The position numbers and the translations under genes were made by a program. DNA of 22,724 nucleotides. Source: a virus. Below are positions 9,702 through 22,724 of this stretch, in pieces; position 1 is the first letter of the stretch, and every line of letters starts with the position of its first letter. Below the pieces are notes generated by a model that made no database searches, had not been told where the DNA came from, and was given only the letters and a program-made list of their open reading frames with translations. Location: IMG/VR virus record IMGVR_UViG_3300020438_000299, positions 1 to 22,724 of that record; one strand, 5' to 3'.

Positions 9702-10706
9702 ATGGCTGTAATCAGGCCCCTAAAATTAAGTGCGTCAGGGGACTTAATCGAAATGAGTTCTGGAGAAGTCCAGCTTCTTATTAATGAAGCTATACGACTT
9801 TATGGAACTGCTCCTGGTATTGAACTATCGTATGATCAAGGCTCAGATGACGGCACAGGTTTTCAATATAAGCTTGACGCTATAGTAGAAAATCGATTGC
9901 AGGCCAGTCCTCTTGCAACAGGAAGTAGCCCGTGGCCAACCCCTGCAGCTTCAACATATCTTGCAACGTCGTATGATGCTATGCTATTGAATATGACATG
10001 GAGAACAGCTTTTCCGTATAAAAACAGAGCTGGTAGCTCGTACGCCAATCAATCATATCCGATATATTATCACTCTGATGGTATAGTGCAAGCTGCAAGC
10101 TGGGTTGATATAAAGGATACAATCATAGCGCCGGCACTTACAAGTCTTGCGTCATCTGCTATTACTCCGGCTGCAGCTGCAGGAACATATTTTGTTTCTA
10201 CCAATACGTCGGAAATAGATGCTACTTTAGTATCACCTAATCCAATTGCTAAAGACACGCAAGCAGACATAGATGGATTTTCTACCGGATCTTTACCTGA
10301 AGTACAAGATCAGCCAGATAATTCTCAAACCGTTGATTATTATCTTCACCGAGTTAATGCTCCTGCAGAGGTGCCTTTTACTGTTCCAGCAGTTACTTTA
10401 GATCCTGAACATAGTATTAATACTATGAGCCGTAGTGTGTATCAGGATATGATTCTACATTTAATGCAATATTGGGCTGTGTGGGGAGCCGACTATAATC
10501 TAGCTTTACGATATCAAACTGGAACCTTAGCATACTTTACGAGTATTGGTTATAATACTAGAGGATCTGGTATGACTGATACATATACTACATCATACGT
10601 ACAAAGATATGAACAGCCTAATTCAAGTACATACTATTCTCAGAACGTACCGACTGGAACTCCTTCGGTTCAGACTGCTAAATATTTAGGAGTCGGCTTA
10701 TCATAA
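9702..10706 (+). CDS. Virion structural protein, marine T4-like type
   Basis: A 334-residue protein beginning MAVIRPLKLSASGDLIEMSS. This resembles a structural protein that recurs next to fibre genes in cyanophages, where the same Arg-Pro-Leu and D-L/I-x-E-M-S pattern occurs near the N-terminus; this is from memory, not from a search. The body is rich in Ser, Thr, Tyr and Ala, with no membrane segment and no catalytic motif that I can see. AGGAG at 9690-9694 stands seven bases before the ATG. It lies between a fibre-like small protein and the coiled-coil repeat gene. I cannot assign a T4 gene number. Confidence 0.7.
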   Translation: MAVIRPLKLSASGDLIEMSSGEVQLLINEAIRLYGTAPGIELSYDQGSDDGTGFQYKLDAIVENRLQASPLATGSSPWPTPAASTYLATSYDAMLLNMTWRTAFPYKNRAGSSYANQSYPIYYHSDGIVQAASWVDIKDTIIAPALTSLASSAITPAAAAGTYFVSTNTSEIDATLVSPNPIAKDTQADIDGFSTGSLPEVQDQPDNSQTVDYYLHRVNAPAEVPFTVPAVTLDPEHSINTMSRSVYQDMILHLMQYWAVWGADYNLALRYQTGTLAYFTSIGYNTRGSGMTDTYTTSYVQRYEQPNSSTYYSQNVPTGTPSVQTAKYLGVGLS

Positions 10707-10719
10707 TGAAAGGTTTATT

Positions 10720-11910
10720 ATGGCACTTTTTTCTAATAAGATCGAAACTGCAAAGTTTGTAGATCATCAGGAAAAAACAATTGAAGTATTGTATAAACAA
10801 ACTCCTGAATCAGTAACACTTTCCACTTACATTTTAGAATTAAATTATAATAGTCAAGATTTTTTAGATCTCTTGGAAGAGGTTAGTATTGAGCAACTTC
10901 AAGATAACACTAGAGAGTTTTATGGCAATATTCATAAAAATAGATCACAGAGTGTTCACGCCGCGGCGGAAGTAATGTTTATGGACTGGATCGCTAATGC
11001 TCAAATAGATCTAGATAAGCAAGATGAAGAGCGATATAAATTATTTGAAAAATATAAAGAAGAGCAACTTAGCGTATTACAATCTGAAGTAGATGCGCAA
11101 GTAGAACGTAGAGTTTCTGAAGGATTCAAAGGCGTTCAGGCAGAATTAGATGTACAAATTGAAGAACGCTATAAAGAGGCTGATGAGTATAAAAAGCAAC
11201 AATTAGAAATTCTACAAAATGAATTAGATGTACAAATTGAAGAACGCTATAAAGAGGCTGACACTTATAGAGAAGAACAATTGTCTATTCTACAAAAAGA
11301 AATAGATGAGCAGACACAAGGTCGATTTAAAGAAACTGATGAGTATAAAGAACAACAATTAGAAATTCTACAAAAAGAAATAGATGTACAAATAGAAAAT
11401 AGATTTAAAGAAGCTGATGAGTATAAAGAACAACAATTAGAAATTCTACAAAAAGAAATAGATGAGCAGACACAAGGTCGATTTAAAGAAGTAGAAGCTT
11501 ATAAAGAAGAACAATTATCTATTCTACAAAATGAGTTAGATGCACAAATAAAAAATAGATATAAAGAAGCTGATGCTTACAAAGAAGAACAATTAGAAAT
11601 TCTGCAAAAAGAAATTAACGAACAAGCAGAATCAAAACATCAAGAAATTGAAGGTATGAAAAATGAGTTTCTTAAAAAATTCAGTATTACTTCTCCTTCG
11701 CCTGTGGTGTATTCGCCAGAAAAGGTTGCAAAATATATTATAGATAATTTTGAAGATGAAGACACAATTTTCAAAACTAAGTTAGAAATTTTTAATTTGC
11801 CTGAAGTTAAAAATAGCAAAAATCGTGAAATGAAAATGAAGGTACGTAAAGCAAAAACTGTACCAGAAATATTTGCAGCATATTATGACATACAACATAG
11901 TAACAGTTAA
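10720..11910 (+). CDS. Coiled-coil protein with tandem 26-residue repeats
   Basis: A 396-residue protein in three parts. Residues 1-98 form an N-terminal domain (MALFSNKIETAKFVDHQEKT onward) that I do not recognise. Residues 99 to about 325 are tandem units with consensus D-x-Q-[IT]-x-x-R-[FY]-K-E-x-x-x-Y-K-E-x-Q-L-x-I-L-Q-x-E-[IL]. About 70 C-terminal residues follow, Lys/Glu-rich. The repeat must form a long charged helix bundle, since a 26-residue unit with seven core positions fits a coiled coil. GAAAGG at 10708-10713 is six bases from the ATG. The C-terminal end overlaps the next gene. It could be a rod-like virion fibre, a whisker-like protein or a scaffold. It heads a block of sugar- and methyl-transferase genes and may be their substrate, which is inference. 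Confidence 0.8.
   Translation: MALFSNKIETAKFVDHQEKTIEVLYKQTPESVTLSTYILELNYNSQDFLDLLEEVSIEQLQDNTREFYGNIHKNRSQSVHAAAEVMFMDWIANAQIDLDKQDEERYKLFEKYKEEQLSVLQSEVDAQVERRVSEGFKGVQAELDVQIEERYKEADEYKKQQLEILQNELDVQIEERYKEADTYREEQLSILQKEIDEQTQGRFKETDEYKEQQLEILQKEIDVQIENRFKEADEYKEQQLEILQKEIDEQTQGRFKEVEAYKEEQLSILQNELDAQIKNRYKEADAYKEEQLEILQKEINEQAESKHQEIEGMKNEFLKKFSITSPSPVVYSPEKVAKYIIDNFEDEDTIFKTKLEIFNLPEVKNSKNREMKMKVRKAKTVPEIFAAYYDIQHSNS
11014..11694 (+). repeat. 78-bp tandem repeat array (26 codons per unit)
   Basis: Units start at 11014, 11092 (short, 57 bases), 11149, 11227, 11305, 11383, 11461 and 11539, with a decayed ninth from 11617. The DNA itself repeats. A 41-base stretch at 11143 recurs at 11221. 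A stretch from 11338 recurs at 11416 for about 49 bases. The start of unit 5 (11305) is repeated exactly at unit 7 (11461), so units 5-6 and 7-8 also form a 156-bp higher-order pattern. The second unit lacks seven codons. Confidence 0.9.
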
Positions 11911-12559
11911 ATTTGGAAACAAATATACATCTGATTTTGTTAACAAACTATATAGGGACATTAGCTATTTTTCTCGAGGATATTATATTTCTAGCAGGTT
12001 TAAATTTTACTGCTACACTGATAATCCGGAAGGATTAATACCTGGCATTGAGGTAATTGATGCCAGACGTGATCCTACATTAAAAGGTGTCTGGAACAAA
12101 CTTAGATTGTTTGATCCAGATATGCCTTTTAAATCGGGGCATAATATTTACATAGACCTAGACACCTATGTGTCTGATTGTATATTTACTAGATTAACAG
12201 ATCATGATTGGAACACACTACACGTGTGTGGCGCGCCCTGGAAAAATGATAAACAAAGATATGGAAGATTATCTAACTATGACGTAACTATACATAGTTC
12301 TGTTATGTCATGGAAAGCTAATACTAATCATGAAATATGGGAGTATTTTAATAGTGGATTGCGTGATTATTATATGAGAAAATATTCAGGAGGTATGGAT
12401 AGATTTCTTGCTCATGAAGATATTATTTTAAAAACATTTAAAAGTAATTTCGTACGGTCTATGAAATACAATACAGAAATAAAAGACGCGGCTATTGTGT
12501 CATTTGAGGAAATAGATGTACAACTCGGAGATCTTATACCGAACTATAAAGCTAGGTGA
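11885..12559 (+). CDS. Glycosyltransferase-like protein
   Basis: A 224-residue protein from the ATG at 11885; a TTG at 11873 would add four residues. The fold signals are those of a nucleotide-sugar transferase: an N-terminal strand followed by GNKY (residues 5-14 onward), FYCYTDNPEG, then GVWNKLRLF, and a DxD motif as IYIDLDTYV with Asp91 and Asp93, which would bind the metal and nucleotide sugar. HED near the C-terminus (FLAHEDIIL) is a second acidic site. The DxD surroundings resemble GT8-like proteins, but I cannot fix the family or the sugar. It overlaps the coiled-coil gene by 26 bases and the methyltransferase gene by 44 bases. No secretion signal is visible, so it should act in the host cytoplasm. 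Confidence 0.75.
   Translation: MTYNIVTVKFGNKYTSDFVNKLYRDISYFSRGYYISSRFKFYCYTDNPEGLIPGIEVIDARRDPTLKGVWNKLRLFDPDMPFKSGHNIYIDLDTYVSDCIFTRLTDHDWNTLHVCGAPWKNDKQRYGRLSNYDVTIHSSVMSWKANTNHEIWEYFNSGLRDYYMRKYSGGMDRFLAHEDIILKTFKSNFVRSMKYNTEIKDAAIVSFEEIDVQLGDLIPNYKAR
12506..12510 (+). promoter_or_regulatory. Ribosome binding site GAGGA deciding the 12516 start
   Basis: GAGGA lies inside the glycosyltransferase coding sequence, five bases before the ATG at 12516. It supports that start over the in-frame ATG at 12579 and makes a 44-base overlap with the upstream gene. Confidence 0.65.
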
Positions 12560-13139
12560 AGAAATTTATAATGAATCTATGTATGGCATCGATGACCTAT
12601 ATAGAATTAAAGATCTATCACATTCTGTAGATAACAATCATTGGATCGGTAAACAATTACTTGCTGAGAAGTTTTGCGAATTATACAATCATGACGCCGG
12701 TAAATTATTAGTACTCGGCGGATGGTACGGTATGATGGCTTATCAATTACGCAAGCAATGGCCTGAAAAACAAATGAATATAGAATCTACTGATATGGAT
12801 CCTATGTGTGAAGAGTACGGCTATAAACTATTTCATGATTATGATATTGCATTCTCCACCCTCAACATAAATGACTCTTTTATTATACCACAATATACAG
12901 GGATTGTAAACACCTCTTGTGAGCATATGGAACAAAAAGATTTAATTAATATAGTTAAATCAAAGGACCCAGATTGTTGGGTCGCTTTTCAATCAAATAA
13001 CTATGTAGATTTAGATTCACATATTAATTGTTATCCTACAGCTGAAGTATTTGCAGAGAGTCTAGATCTTAATTGGGTGGCTGATATTGATACAATAGAC
13101 TTAGGTGATTTTAAGAGGTTTACCGTCATTGGAAAATAA
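12516..13139 (+). CDS. SAM-dependent methyltransferase-like protein (class I)
   Basis: A 207-residue protein. The sequence KLLVLGGWYGMMAYQL (residues 63-78) looks like motif I of class I methyltransferases, where the Gly-rich loop binds S-adenosylmethionine. Asp93 and Asp95 in ESTDMDP are at the motif II position that would hold the ribose. IVNTSCEHM at 130-138 fits the motif IV strand, and FKRFTVIGK is a plausible final strand. A variant with Trp in the Gly-rich loop is found in phage proteins encoded beside glycosyltransferases, as I recall. The target is unknown; a sugar or a protein side chain would suit the context. The start has a good ribosome site. It overlaps both neighbours, by 44 and 11 bases, so coupled translation is likely. 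Confidence 0.65.
   Translation: MYNSEILYRTIKLGEEIYNESMYGIDDLYRIKDLSHSVDNNHWIGKQLLAEKFCELYNHDAGKLLVLGGWYGMMAYQLRKQWPEKQMNIESTDMDPMCEEYGYKLFHDYDIAFSTLNINDSFIIPQYTGIVNTSCEHMEQKDLINIVKSKDPDCWVAFQSNNYVDLDSHINCYPTAEVFAESLDLNWVADIDTIDLGDFKRFTVIGK
13113..13118 (+). promoter_or_regulatory. Ribosome binding site AAGAGG for a TTG start
   Basis: AAGAGG is ten bases before the TTG at 13129 and lies inside the upstream methyltransferase gene. It favours TTG 13129 over GTG 13105 as the start of the second glycosyltransferase-like gene. Confidence 0.45.
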
Positions 13140-14028
13140 AGTAGTATTTAGTATTTTTATTGATATTCCTGAAGATCGTTTAGATAATCCAGGATGGTGG
13201 GAAAACGGTAAACAGATTGTAACGGATAAAAGTAAGCAAACAAAATTAGCTTTACTTAATAATGCCGAACTTGTAACCGAACGCCAAAAACAATATGCAA
13301 ACTACATTGGAGCTGACTATATACTATTTCAATATGATAGTACATATAAAAAGTTCTTTAATGATATAAAAAATAGGTTTACAGAGATCAGCGAATATGA
13401 TATAGTAAACTTCTATAAACATCGTGTTATGCGAGACTTAGCGGACCAGTACGAGTACGTCTGCTACTTAGATTTCGACGTTGTACCAAATACCACTGAC
13501 TGTATATTTCAATCTCATAATGTAGATAAAATGATGGCTGTCGCTGAATCAAATCGACTTGCTATTCGTGGCAAAGTAATGAAGTCAGAAAATTACAATC
13601 TTTGCATACGAAATCCTGCTACAAAATATTGGAACACTCACGCTCTTCTTATGGAAGAAGGTCATGACCCTGAGAATGATGTTTTTAATACTGGAATTAT
13701 GGCAGCATCGTCAGAGGTAATTAAACAAATAGACTATTTTAAAGACTTTGAATATATTATAAAACTCATGAGCGATGTAAAGCATGATGAATTTTCTATG
13801 TATCCTAAAAATATTCAGAGAGTATTTAATTACGACAACGAAACCGTGTTTTCATACTGGGTCAAATCTAGAGAGATACAAATACAATACCTGGCAAAAG
13901 AATGGCATTGGTTAGTTGATGAATTAGTATCTGACCCCAGTCATATAGATCCAAAGGCAAAATTATATCATTTTATAAACAAGAAAATGGAGTGGATTAA
14001 AGATATAAATAGAAACAAAGTAACTTAA
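13129..14028 (+). CDS. Second glycosyltransferase-like protein, non-ATG start
   Basis: A 299-residue protein from TTG 13129 (first residues MENKVVFSIFIDIPED). A GTG at 13105 would add eight residues, and the first in-frame ATG is about 100 codons in and would remove the N-terminal fold. VVFSIFIDI is a typical first strand of a nucleotide-sugar transferase. VERQKQYANYIGADYI-type helix sequence follows (here TERQKQYANYIGADYILF). The DxD motif is YLDFDVVP with Asp115 and Asp117. Later, NTGIMAAS suits the acceptor region. It is not a close copy of the first transferase upstream. It overlaps the methyltransferase gene by 11 bases and carries a late promoter near its 3' end. Donor and acceptor are unknown. 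Confidence 0.7.
   Translation: MENKVVFSIFIDIPEDRLDNPGWWENGKQIVTDKSKQTKLALLNNAELVTERQKQYANYIGADYILFQYDSTYKKFFNDIKNRFTEISEYDIVNFYKHRVMRDLADQYEYVCYLDFDVVPNTTDCIFQSHNVDKMMAVAESNRLAIRGKVMKSENYNLCIRNPATKYWNTHALLMEEGHDPENDVFNTGIMAASSEVIKQIDYFKDFEYIIKLMSDVKHDEFSMYPKNIQRVFNYDNETVFSYWVKSREIQIQYLAKEWHWLVDELVSDPSHIDPKAKLYHFINKKMEWIKDINRNKVT
14004..14011 (+). promoter_or_regulatory. T4-type late promoter box TATAAATA inside coding sequence
   Basis: A perfect late consensus lies within the last codons of the second glycosyltransferase-like gene and ends 30 bases before the ATG at 14042. It should start a separate late transcript for the small beta-sandwich protein and the 1309-residue fibre protein. The leader carries only a weak AAGAG at 14027-14031. 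Confidence 0.7.
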
Positions 14029-14041
14029 GAGTGTTTGTACA

Positions 14042-14392
14042 ATGGCGCAATACGAAGAACTATCAATAGATAAGGGTACTGATATTACTCTCCAACTTGA
14101 GTTGGAAGATACAAGCGGCAATCCAAAAAATCTAACGAATCACACTGTTGCAGGTAAAGTCAAAAAAACATACAATACACCTGACAATGAGGCGACATCT
14201 TTTACTGCCGAATTAGTAGCTCCTGCTACTAGCGGTGTGGTAAATCTTTCATTGACAAATACTCAGACAGGCGCATTTAAAGCCGGGCGATACGTATATG
14301 ATGTAGAAATTTCTTTCGTAGATAGCGATGCACAAACAGTGATAGAAAGAATTCTTGAAGGCACAATCACAGTCACACCATCCGTGACATAG
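14042..14392 (+). CDS. Small beta-sandwich virion-type protein
   Basis: A 116-residue protein with alternating hydrophobic strands: DITLQLELEDTSG, TVAGKVKKTY, GVVNLSLTN, then GRYVYDVEISFVDSD and ILEGTITVTPSVT. The K/R-Y-x-Y-D-V-E-I and E-G-x-I/V-T-V-T-P patterns are recurrent in small baseplate-associated proteins of marine myoviruses and in the BppU-like N-terminal domain of other phages, which suggests an immunoglobulin-like attachment fold. There is no signal peptide and no catalytic motif. It stands behind its own late promoter and 16 bases before the large fibre gene, so it may join that fibre to the baseplate; this last point is inference. Confidence 0.65.
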   Translation: MAQYEELSIDKGTDITLQLELEDTSGNPKNLTNHTVAGKVKKTYNTPDNEATSFTAELVAPATSGVVNLSLTNTQTGAFKAGRYVYDVEISFVDSDAQTVIERILEGTITVTPSVT

Positions 14393-19035: not shown

Positions 19036-22000
19036 ATGGCAACAGTAATAGATCTCGGTAAATTAAGATTTGAGTATCGTGGCGAGTGGACGAATGCTAC
19101 TACGTACGAGGCTAATGACGTTGTCAAGTATGGCGGCAATCTTTACGTTTACAAATATGGTTTAAAAACTTCAGGCAACATTCCACAAACGGCTTCCTTG
19201 TATTGGGACCTGATGGTAGAAGGCTTTAAGTTTGAAGGTGCGTATGACTCTGACACAACATATAATGTTGGCGACGGATTCTCATATGGTGGTATTGTTT
19301 ATATCACAACAGCCAATAGTATAAGCGGAACACGTCCACCAAATGCTGGATATTCTACGTTTACAGATGGTCTTCAATACGAAGGCGAATGGAGTAATTC
19401 AACTCAATACCAAAAGTCAGATATTGTTAAGTATGGCCCAAAGTCATATATTGCTTCTGCTGATCCTGCAATTGGCGCGAATCCGTTAACAGCATCATGG
19501 CAAATATTTTCTGATGGTATATCTTTCGATAGCGCATATGATAGTACTGTTACATATAAGCCAGGTCAGGTTGCAAAATGGGGCAATAATTCTTATATCG
19601 CAAATCAAGATGTAGGTGCCGGAGATTCTCCAAATGTAGCTGGGAACTGGACTCAAATTATTGAAGGACAAAGTTGGAAAGATTCATATAATAGTTTAAC
19701 AAAATATTATGAACATGATATTGTAACCTTTGCGACACGTACATACAAATCTAAGCGTGATAACTTATTAAATGTTAGACCAGATACTAATACTGCTCTG
19801 TGGCAACTTATAGGTACTGGACTTAAGGCTGAAGGTATTTGGTCAGGCAGTACAGTATATTATGTGGATCAATTAACAACATATGGTAATACGACATATA
19901 GAGCTAAAGCTGAAACAATTAACCAAGTTCCAGATGTGACACCAGCTGTATGGGAAGAAATTGCTTCAGGTGTTGATACAAGAGGAAGCTGGGGTGGAGG
20001 AACACTATATTATAAAGGTGATATTATCGTTAACGGTAATAAATCTTATATAAAAAATGCTTCATCGCACACTTCTAATACAACCTTTGATTCAGATAAT
20101 TCTAATTGGACAACTTTAACCGACGGCGTTAGATACAGAGCTGGCGGATACGATAGTTCTGCTAGTTATTTAATTAATGACATCGTACAATATAGTACAA
20201 GCTCTTATATAGCTTTAGAGAATTTTAACGCTTCTGGAAACTTTGGTAGTGAACTGACCGCAGGCAAATGGGAATTACTCGCTGCTGGTGGCGGTTCGGT
20301 TCTTCCTTCTCTTGCGGTAAGCGATAAAGGTAAATTTTTAGGATCTACAGATGGCGTTGCTTATAGCTGGCAATATCCTGGCAAAGCTGATAAAGTTTAC
20401 TATGTTGCTGAAAACGGTAACGCAGATTCTGATTTGGGTCAAACGGTCGATACAGCTTGGGGATCTTTAAAATTCGCATTAGAAAATGTGACTGGTCCAG
20501 CTACTATCTTTATTAAAGACGGTAAATATCGCGAAAACCTACCTATGACGATTCCTGCTAACATTACGCTTAAGGGTGATGGTCAAAGGAACACTGAAAT
20601 TCATCCAGCTGCTGGCGACTCGCAAGAAACTATGTTCTTTGTAAATAGTGGAGTTCTTGTTGAAGAACTTAAATTTACAGGACTTACTGGGTTTGCGCTA
20701 GATGGATCTAATCCTCATGATATTGAAGACGCTACAATTGGTGGAGTTTACTTTAGACTTGACCCAACTGCAGTTATTCTAAAATCTCCATATATTAAAG
20801 AATCAACAGCATTCTCAACCGGTGGCGTTGGAGCTGTTATTGACGGAGGGCTTAACAGTAATCCAGCAAACCAAGGTTCTATGGTTTTCCACACATTTAC
20901 GCAAGTTCATAACGGTGGTGCTGGTTTCCATGTTCGCAAAAACGGTAAATCAGAAATCGTTTCTTGCTTTACATATTATTGTGATTTTGGCCTTGTAACA
21001 TCTAGCGGTGGTAAGATTAGAGCTCTTAACTGTAATAACTCTTATGGTACTTACGGCGCGGTTGCTGAAGGATTTGATTCCAACGAAGTTGCAATTACAG
21101 GTAAAATTAGAGGTACTTCACTTCATTACGACGGTAATACAATAACTGGTGGTACTGAATTCTCTGTAGGATCGAAGATTGTTGGTGAAGCAAGCAATGA
21201 AAAAATAGATAGAGCGACTCGTGCTGCTAACGTTTCCTTCCATTCTCCCAATCACGGTTTAACAACTGGCCAAAAAATATCTATTACAGGTATGACACCT
21301 TCAACGTGGGCGTCATTGTTCACGGCTGATAGTTATTGGGTTTCAGCTACAGACTCTTCTAACTTTGTACCGTACATTGACTCGGCAAGATCTACAGGTA
21401 TTGATACGCAAAATGCTGGCGGTAGAAACACTGTTAGTACAACAATTACAGATATTGCTCGTCAAAACCCAGTAAGATTAACTGTTACGACTGCGGCAAA
21501 CGCTGATTCATATGCTCCTCACTATATACAAAGTGTTGGTGGTATGACTCAAATGAATAACCGCTGGGTCACGTTTGATAGTGGAGCTGCTACATCTGCA
21601 TCTACTCTTTTTGCAAGAGAAGGTGAAAACGTTAAGATTCAAGTTAAAAACGCTGGTAGCCAAACAGAATTGGCTGGTACGACTGGAGGGTCGACCCTGA
21701 CATTTGGTTCTGCTAACCCAGCAATTACTCTTTATAGAGGTTCAAGATATAGATTTATTGGTGACTCGGCAAGCGCCGTAACAAAATCAGTTGCCGGTGG
21801 ACGTTTCTATCTTTCTACTTCTACTAGCTGGGATTCAAGTAACTTTACAGATGAATACACAACTGGAATCCTAAATAGTAGAAACAATCTTGATGGTGAT
21901 TCAACTCTTGATAGTACAGTAGACGGACTACTCTTTGAAGTTGGACCTACAACTCCAGCAACGTTGTATTATAACTTTGACAGTGCTACTTCTGCTTCTC

Positions 22001-22724
22001 AAATGAGAGGGCAAATTAACATTGTTAATCCTCCGTTCATTGATGCTCAATCATATAGCGTTTATACTTCTGGTGGTCAAGCTAGACTGATGGATTCAGG
22101 CGACTACTTCGACTCTGCTCATTGGAACGCTGAAGCTCCTACGGCTGACGTTATTAATACGCAACCTACTGAAGATAAAATCTATGTAGAAAATATTACT
22201 TTCCCAGGATTTGCCGGCGGTGAACTTATTAGTCAAGGCGCAGTAAATGCAAGCCTTGTTAACTCAAACTTTTATCGAGGCCAATATGGCTATATTGTGT
22301 CAATTGATACTTTAACTGGACAGCCAAAACCTGGTCAATCTATATCGTTTACGGGTGATGCTGATAGTGCGGGATACGCAAGAGCATATGTTGTTTCTAG
22401 CGTAACTGGATATGATTCAAGCACAGGGCAAGCGACATTAACATTATCGCAGCAAAAGCTTGAAACAAATGCTTCAGTTGATGATACTAACGTAACAGTT
22501 AGAACTAATTATTCTCAGGTAAGACTTACAGGTCACGACTTCTTGAGTGTTGGTACTGGTGGAGTGACCACAACCAATTATCCTGGAACTCCAACGCAAG
22601 CTGCTTCTCAAGGAAACGAAGTTATTGAGACTGCCCCTGGTCGAGTTTACTTTATCTCGACTGACCAAGATGGTAACTTTAGAGTTGGTAACTACTTTAG
22701 AATTGACCAGGCTACTGGACGAGC
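19036..22724 (+). CDS. Giant modular fibre/adhesin protein, 3' end missing
   Basis: The frame opens at ATG 19036 (MATVIDLGKLRFEYRGEW) and stays open through the window end: 1229 codons visible. GGAG at 19022-19025 is ten bases upstream. Residues 12 to about 418 hold eight modules of about 50 residues. From about residue 454 the style changes to a pectin-lyase-like beta helix (KVYYVAENGNADSDLGQTVD, then GPATIFIKDGKYREN and ITLKGDGQR). A segment near 897 (ITLYRGSRYRFIGDSA) resembles the YRG-x-x-Y-x-F cupredoxin-like motif of marine phage proteins. Near 1203 the motif GRVYFISTDQDGNFRVGNYF is one I know from giant structural proteins of marine T4-like phages. It is most likely a long tail or baseplate fibre that contacts surface glycans. 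Confidence 0.8.
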   Translation, partial: MATVIDLGKLRFEYRGEWTNATTYEANDVVKYGGNLYVYKYGLKTSGNIPQTASLYWDLMVEGFKFEGAYDSDTTYNVGDGFSYGGIVYITTANSISGTRPPNAGYSTFTDGLQYEGEWSNSTQYQKSDIVKYGPKSYIASADPAIGANPLTASWQIFSDGISFDSAYDSTVTYKPGQVAKWGNNSYIANQDVGAGDSPNVAGNWTQIIEGQSWKDSYNSLTKYYEHDIVTFATRTYKSKRDNLLNVRPDTNTALWQLIGTGLKAEGIWSGSTVYYVDQLTTYGNTTYRAKAETINQVPDVTPAVWEEIASGVDTRGSWGGGTLYYKGDIIVNGNKSYIKNASSHTSNTTFDSDNSNWTTLTDGVRYRAGGYDSSASYLINDIVQYSTSSYIALENFNASGNFGSELTAGKWELLAAGGGSVLPSLAVSDKGKFLGSTDGVAYSWQYPGKADKVYYVAENGNADSDLGQTVDTAWGSLKFALENVTGPATIFIKDGKYRENLPMTIPANITLKGDGQRNTEIHPAAGDSQETMFFVNSGVLVEELKFTGLTGFALDGSNPHDIEDATIGGVYFRLDPTAVILKSPYIKESTAFSTGGVGAVIDGGLNSNPANQGSMVFHTFTQVHNGGAGFHVRKNGKSEIVSCFTYYCDFGLVTSSGGKIRALNCNNSYGTYGAVAEGFDSNEVAITGKIRGTSLHYDGNTITGGTEFSVGSKIVGEASNEKIDRATRAANVSFHSPNHGLTTGQKISITGMTPSTWASLFTADSYWVSATDSSNFVPYIDSARSTGIDTQNAGGRNTVSTTITDIARQNPVRLTVTTAANADSYAPHYIQSVGGMTQMNNRWVTFDSGAATSASTLFAREGENVKIQVKNAGSQTELAGTTGGSTLTFGSANPAITLYRGSRYRFIGDSASAVTKSVAGGRFYLSTSTSWDSSNFTDEYTTGILNSRNNLDGDSTLDSTVDGLLFEVGPTTPATLYYNFDSATSASQMRGQINIVNPPFIDAQSYSVYTSGGQARLMDSGDYFDSAHWNAEAPTADVINTQPTEDKIYVENITFPGFAGGELISQGAVNASLVNSNFYRGQYGYIVSIDTLTGQPKPGQSISFTGDADSAGYARAYVVSSVTGYDSSTGQATLTLSQQKLETNASVDDTNVTVRTNYSQVRLTGHDFLSVGTGGVTTTNYPGTPTQAASQGNEVIETAPGRVYFISTDQDGNFRVGNYFRIDQATGR
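19069..20288 (+). repeat. Eight tandem modules of about 50 residues, carbohydrate-binding-like
   Basis: Each module follows G-x-W/Y-x-x-x-T-x-Y-x-x-x-D-I/V-V-x-Y/W-x-x-x-x-Y-I/x-A, then a Pro-containing loop and W-x-x-x-x-x-G. The aromatic pattern recalls CBM5/12 chitin-binding-like modules. Modules 2 and 7 are the most altered. Protein similarity is clear, while the DNA has diverged. Confidence 0.75.

Follow-up and report, generated by a model that had tools for sequence, protein, structure and literature searches.

When marine T4-like phages encode glycosyltransferases in their fibre region, the usual assumption is that these target the host. The locus described here raises the question of whether such enzymes, when encoded next to a methyltransferase-like protein and a repetitive helical protein, might act on the virion itself. 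The window (the whole stretch of DNA that was analysed, a 22.7-kb virus record with about 16 genes on the + strand) carries four such genes, designated CC, GT1, MT and GT2. The reading developed below, to which roughly even odds are given, is that this block serves as a transferable module for decorating the virion, in which CC is the dedicated acceptor or adaptor.

The block and the slot that it fills

The initial annotation had described four consecutive, mutually overlapping genes, and these were found where it placed them, on the + strand, each running into the next. The block and its surroundings read as follows.

Upstream of the block, + strand: gp8-type baseplate gene (PF09215)
Upstream of the block, + strand: VrlC-like gene, 1742 aa (phrog_358)
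Upstream of the block, + strand: gene for a phrog_473 protein (PHROG match)
Upstream of the block, alongside G334, + strand: gene for a 128-aa fibre-like protein
9702..10706, + strand: G334, fibre-like structural protein, directly 5′ of CC
10720..11910, + strand: CC, member of an unnamed family
11885..12559, + strand: GT1, predicted GT-A glycosyltransferase (DLD motif, residues 91-93)
12516..13139, + strand: MT, predicted class I SAM-dependent transferase (GGWYG and NTSCEHM motifs)
13129..14028, + strand: GT2, putative GT8-like glycosyltransferase (DFD motif, residues 115-117)
14042..14392, + strand: H116, L-shaped tail fibre assembly-type protein (phrog_3304, E 1.7e-18; phrog_1084, E 1.4e-21)
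Downstream of the block, + strand: gene for a 1309-aa repetitive fibre

CC and GT1 overlap by 26 nt when GT1 is started at the ATG at 11885, which is the start in relatives (the start given earlier, 11873, is an upstream TTG). GT1 and MT overlap by 44 nt, and MT and GT2 by 11 nt (TTG 13129) or by 35 nt if the alternative start GTG 13105 is used. All four genes are under purifying selection, with omega between 0.04 and 0.27.

The block had also been said to interrupt a baseplate/fibre cluster. The baseplate and fibre flanks are indeed there (PF09215, phrog_358, phrog_473, phrog_3304), but the block is better described as filling a known hypervariable slot that extends from VrlC to the next fibre-assembly gene, with H116 as its right border. 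In sequence comparison, the 1742-aa VrlC-like product is 32-35% identical to the VrlC-type proteins of Mosig, HTVC008M and C48C1. The slot corresponds to the “host recognition cluster” (HRC) of pelagimyophages, a known hypervariable island rich in glycosyltransferases (PMC7029224), as it is a variable island past VrlC with tail-fibre genes and glycosyltransferases; the record itself carries no host information. Cassettes with radical SAM genes are described for the HRC as well, and its glycosyltransferases, of which GT8 is the commonest type, were interpreted as modifiers of the host O-antigen or O-chain (Zaragoza-Solas et al. 2020, PMC7029224). In the parts of that paper drawn on here, neither CC, nor a CC–GT1–MT–GT2 unit, nor linkage independent of strand, nor co-divergence is described.

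The left-hand neighbour, G334, has no match in Pfam or PHROG, and both ends are conserved in its family (77 sequences). It lies directly 5′ of CC for 73 of 86 distinct CC genes, the remaining 13 being on stretches where no G334 is visible. Two further open frames lie at the ends of the window. The 5′-open frame at 1-1446 precedes the fibre/baseplate genes and contains the subtilisin-like motifs HGTQCASLI and GTSAACPVAAG, which, by reading of the sequence only, suggest a serine-protease-like domain within a phage structural region. The 3′-open, fibre-like frame at 19036-22722 has repeated short modules (Y..GD.V.YGG..Y) that, by eye, resemble carbohydrate-binding repeats.

Predicted activities of the three enzymes

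Searches of Pfam, PHROG and PDB sequences with the window’s own CC, GT1, MT and GT2 gave nothing significant, and relatives of each were therefore collected and aligned. The catalytic-type motifs are nearly invariant across 75-108 relatives per family, and both aspartates of the DxD motif are invariant (100%) in 100 relatives of GT1 and 75 of GT2.

The AF2 model of GT1 (pLDDT 85, pTM 0.87) was compared with the PDB using Foldseek, which returned BoGT6a (E 3.5e-9), LgtC (an LPS galactosyltransferase), the blood-group transferases and the catalytic domains of UGGT, with E values of about 1e-9 to 1e-7. GT1 thus models as a GT-A glycosyltransferase of GT6/GT8-like type, and a remote homolog in Phage C48C1 falls into a glycosyltransferase family (phrog_1962, E 3.9e-21). 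The assignment of GT2 as a putative GT8-like glycosyltransferase was made through its relatives, 6 of 21 of which match PF01501 (Glyco_transf_8; best 3.3e-7), one of them with 29.2 bits against a cut-off of 24.3, while the window’s own GT2 alone falls below the PF01501 threshold. A homolog with 34% identity (E 2e-49) is encoded by Pelagibacter phage Mosig. The likeness to GT6/GT8 enzymes such as BoGT6a and LgtC lies in the GT-A fold for GT1, in PF01501 for the GT2 relatives and in the conserved DxD, but identity to them is only about 10-14%. The possibility that GT1 and GT2 are close paralogs was discarded, as a profile comparison found no significant similarity between them.

The model of MT (pLDDT 89, pTM 0.88) matched class I SAM enzymes in the PDB, so that MT is predicted to be a class I SAM-dependent enzyme with a Rossmann-like SAM-binding fold. 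CntL, an aminobutanoyl transferase, and nicotianamine synthase appear among many methyltransferases in the Foldseek results, and there is a weak sequence similarity to CntL (E 0.023). Because of this side resemblance, transfer of a methyl group rather than of another SAM moiety is likely but not certain. The earlier picture of two DxD-type transferases flanking a class I methyltransferase-like protein is therefore borne out by the models of GT1 and MT, in which the GT-A core and a SAM pocket-type fold are present, and for GT2 by the Pfam GT8 matches of its relatives.

The fold types also bear on whether the enzymes could hypermodify phage DNA, as in the glucosylated hydroxymethylcytosine of T4. 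Phages do glycosylate their DNA by means of glycosyltransferases, but the T4 alpha- and beta-glucosyltransferases are GT-B enzymes, in contrast to the predicted GT-A fold of GT1 and the GT8-like GT2; moreover, no hydroxymethylase or nucleotide-pool gene lies within the window, and the location of the block is a late structural one. DNA glucosylation, which is very improbable here, was rejected on fold type and genomic context.

The CC family and its association with transferases

The 26-residue repeat of CC reported in the initial annotation is real: Tandem repeat analysis (TRF) found a 78-bp unit in 6.1 copies with 78% matches at 11142..11615 (+), and identity at a lag of 78 was 0.783, compared with at most 0.470 across 2000 codon shuffles. 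CC is a probable coiled coil, judging from its sequence. An alignment of 33 diverse members showed, however, that what is kept in the family is an N-terminal domain (about residues 1-70) and a C-terminal helical domain (about 332-390), and that the repeat, inserted between them, varies in length, being short or absent in many relatives and reaching up to seven units in others. The repeat was accordingly rejected as the key feature of CC, and with it the argument that it makes CC an obvious substrate. Family members range from 142 to 418 aa, with a median of 191. In a near-identical relative (L002:1807-3060), CC has 418 aa rather than the 396 aa of the window; a difference of 22 residues in so close a relative indicates that the number of repeats changes quickly. 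A threonine is nearly invariant (96% of 85 relatives).

CC therefore represents an unnamed family with conserved N- and C-terminal domains. It has no consistent Pfam, PHROG or PDB match, and assorted PHROG matches to coiled coils were judged compositional. A role as a tail fibre assembly chaperone was considered and dropped: one member of 23 weakly matched phrog_4697 (E 0.0075), a search with the 33 diverse members gave no chaperone match, and CC does not resemble the protein annotated as a chaperone in C48C1. At three loci (L226, L227 and L229), two tandem CC genes follow G334.

The order CC–GT1–MT–GT2 is fixed in relatives of 47-99% identity, and the survey of related genomes found the four genes strictly syntenic rather than scattered down to about 48-60% identity. 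MT and GT2 are separated by a 138-aa gene in one sub-group, and in more distant relatives the block is prolonged by GT3, a further GT-like gene, and by several radical SAM/SPASM proteins. Two such loci (L010:7501-12858 and L014:7519-11984) encode, between GT3 and the fibre-assembly gene, clustered radical SAM proteins alongside separate SPASM proteins, with some of the SPASM domains as stand-alone small proteins. The same module was seen in L063, L070, L073 and L076, which are labelled as Rhodobacteraceae, Rhodobiaceae, Pelagibacter and Gammaproteobacteria MAGs and look like phage fragments.

Since the loci used to follow the linkage of CC to transferases should not be chosen by the enzymes, viral contigs were picked by a DNA pattern for the C-terminal motif of G334, DYR(A/T)QEFP. 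At least 80 loci matched, and 76 of the 80 listed encode G334. Among the matches listed with at least 2 kb downstream, a GT or MT gene was present within 6 kb at 45 of 46 CC-positive loci and at 0 of 8 CC-negative ones (Fisher p 9e-9 for the matches listed, uncorrected for the relatedness of the contigs; the CC-negative loci may be one lineage). At the lone CC-positive exception among these matches, L337, a gene that is GNAT-like by eye adjoins CC, and at two of the CC-negative loci (L317 and L342) G334 stands beside collagen-like fibres and neck-type genes. The transferases are on the strand opposite to G334–CC in 33 of the 52 loci with CC plus GT among the matches listed, and the link between CC and the transferases is thus not just that of one operon.

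The convergent arrangement is found in Mosig-like phages, where MT–GT2–GT3–GT1 faces CC–(epimerase)–G334 and where larger versions add aminotransferase, carbamoyltransferase, epimerase and radical SAM-type genes. Pelagibacter phage Mosig EXVC030M (MT647606) is the sole culture found in which homologs of G334, CC, MT, GT2, GT3 and GT1 occur together, but unlike that of the window its cassette is convergent, about 18 kb long and equipped with sugar-biosynthesis, carbamoyltransferase and radical SAM-type genes. The HTVC008M cluster has neither CC, G334 nor the block enzymes. In Phage C48C1, CC comes directly after a giant fibre gene and ahead of the fibre-assembly gene; it is adjoined by a different GT-like gene and a 2OG-oxygenase-like gene (both by eye, with nothing found for them in Pfam or PHROGs), and the GT1 and GT2 homologs are located elsewhere, away from CC.

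The radical SAM genes raise the alternative that CC is a RiPP-like or otherwise enzymatically matured precursor, on which radical SAM/SPASM enzymes would act first and which a GT and MT would then decorate, the window being a reduced version without the radical SAM step. The radical SAM/SPASM class includes known peptide-modifying members, the matches in the related clusters are clear (PF04055 up to 5e-14, PF13186 up to 5e-10), and 2OG-oxygenase-like or GNAT-like neighbours occur on a reading of the sequence without Pfam confirmation. Against this, the window lacks radical SAM genes, as do 9 of 26 loci with CC plus GT (matches listed, at least 5 kb), radical SAM enzymes act on sugars too, and CC does not have a leader/core layout, all of which makes maturation of this type quite improbable.

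Divergence was followed at 29 loci with all genes, most of them colinear and only 4 of the convergent type. Pairwise distances of CC correlated with those of MT, GT1 and GT2 (Spearman 0.67-0.71), and the partial correlation of CC with the cassette was 0.43 with VrlC as the control and 0.56 when both ends of G334 were added as controls (Mantel p 0.002, the lowest value that the permutations allowed). The partial correlation of G334 with MT was -0.22, although G334 is equally close to CC and is unsaturated (mean distance 0.58); with E77, a short gene, as the control, the pattern was the same. As it is CC and not G334 that co-diverges with the enzymes, the left end of the inherited unit lies between G334 and CC. 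With most loci colinear, physical linkage contributes to these distances, and in the colinear type the physical closeness of CC and GT1 could alone be enough to produce correlated values. One pair of loci runs counter to the general trend: between L188 and L189, MT, GT1 and GT2 are nearly identical (3-6% different) while CC differs by 50% and G334 by 56%, which is a swap of the cassette without CC.

It might be argued that G334–CC is no more than the left-hand boundary of a hypervariable island in which sugar-modification genes are common, and that CC and the enzymes are functionally unrelated. Such an island has been described for the region (PMC7029224), many neighbouring genes vary, and related phages may share the arrangement by descent. 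This explanation is unlikely, however, in that at 58 of 85 distinct CC loci no other gene separates CC from the nearest transferase, the same enzyme families recur in both strand arrangements, and the CC distances follow the cassette after control for the backbone. The earlier proposal that CC is a partner or carrier thus holds in its first part, the partner role having gained independent support from linkage and co-divergence, but not in its argument for a substrate from the repeat.

Virion or host surface as the acceptor

The remaining alternative is that the transferases act on the infected cell, whose O-chain or other surface glycan they would change so as to prevent co-infection or keep new virions off the debris, and that CC and G334 are fibre parts that merely adjoin them. 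In its favour are the published reading of the HRC, with GT8 as the commonest type and SAR11 nearly without restriction systems (PMC7029224), the GT8 character of the GT2 relatives and the resemblance of GT1 to LgtC. Modification of the host surface alone would leave unexplained that CC predicts the transferases (45/46 versus 0/8 in the matches listed) and that it, not G334, co-diverges with them. The serotype-converting gtr clusters combine a membrane flippase with a membrane-spanning GT; in the four proteins of the block, the maximum hydropathy over 19-residue windows is 0.74 and there is no transmembrane stretch, so that the block encodes no flippase or membrane GT, and no ligase is found in it either.

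The distribution of MT points in the same direction. At least 493 members were confirmed in viral contigs, compared with 15 loci in the genomes of 84,980 bacterial species, at least five of which are phage-like. Of 297 genomes from the order to which G001, a Candidatus Pelagibacter MAG by its title, belongs, 2 had a match, namely G001 itself, on a phage-like contig, and a weak match interrupted by stops, none of them a clear host surface-glycan gene. In five Kiloniellaceae loci (L065, L066, L067, L068 and L069), a distant MT homolog lies beside large peptide ABC transporter-like genes and may represent a cellular use of the family, non-glycan by context. Together, the missing membrane parts and a family that is rare in bacterial genomes and abundant in viral contigs favour a virion-side role and make action on the host surface the less probable alternative.

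To our knowledge, there are few reports of glycosylated structural proteins in phages. There is precedent for such glycosylation by phage enzymes, however: the virions of mycobacteriophages Che8 and Rita are glycosylated, the acceptor being the major capsid protein (Freeman et al. 2023, cited in PMC11256854), and for the jumbo phage XacN1 unassigned glycoproteins were described (PMC5852040). Like the block, these phages encode glycosyltransferases that are believed to decorate virion proteins, but the portions of these accounts considered here (PMC11256854, PMC5852040) mention no partner resembling CC and no syntenic unit containing a methyltransferase.

For the virion-decoration module, we infer sugar donors, an order of reactions, a methylation step and a virion-protein acceptor. 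In this module, which a marine T4-like phage keeps in its host-recognition cluster, GT1 and GT2, both of GT-A type, would successively attach one or two sugars, and MT would cap or modify the sugar, O-methylation being the simplest reading. CC would be the dedicated protein partner, either as the acceptor or as an adaptor presenting a tail-fibre protein from the same cluster, and on release from the cell the host-recognition apparatus of the virion would carry a small capped glycan. Several points count against such a module: CC is not rich in S/T/N (13%, versus 25% in G334), the glycosyltransferases of the region have a published host O-antigen reading (PMC7029224), and the extra genes of Mosig-like phages are expected for sugar biosynthesis whatever the acceptor. 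A narrower version, tentative and rather unlikely, is that CC is a phage-specific glycan carrier, a small virion protein with the sole function of receiving the capped glycan and displaying it on interchangeable tail fibres, the site perhaps being the near-invariant threonine.

The HRC site and its richness in glycosyltransferases were already known; what is new is the CC family, its linkage to the transferases and their co-divergence. CC predicts the transferases, adjoins them on either strand and co-diverges with them, unlike the neighbouring fibre, and this linkage and co-divergence speak for action on the virion side, in which CC would be the acceptor or an adaptor. They suggest a phage that decorates its own virion, and not the host alone, with a capped sugar, and the linkage provides a testable list of substrates. 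The arrangement recurs in many uncultured aquatic phages and, among the cultured phages found, only in Mosig. If CC is indeed a glycan carrier, then CC and the transferases would form a swappable unit that alters how the virion meets its host.
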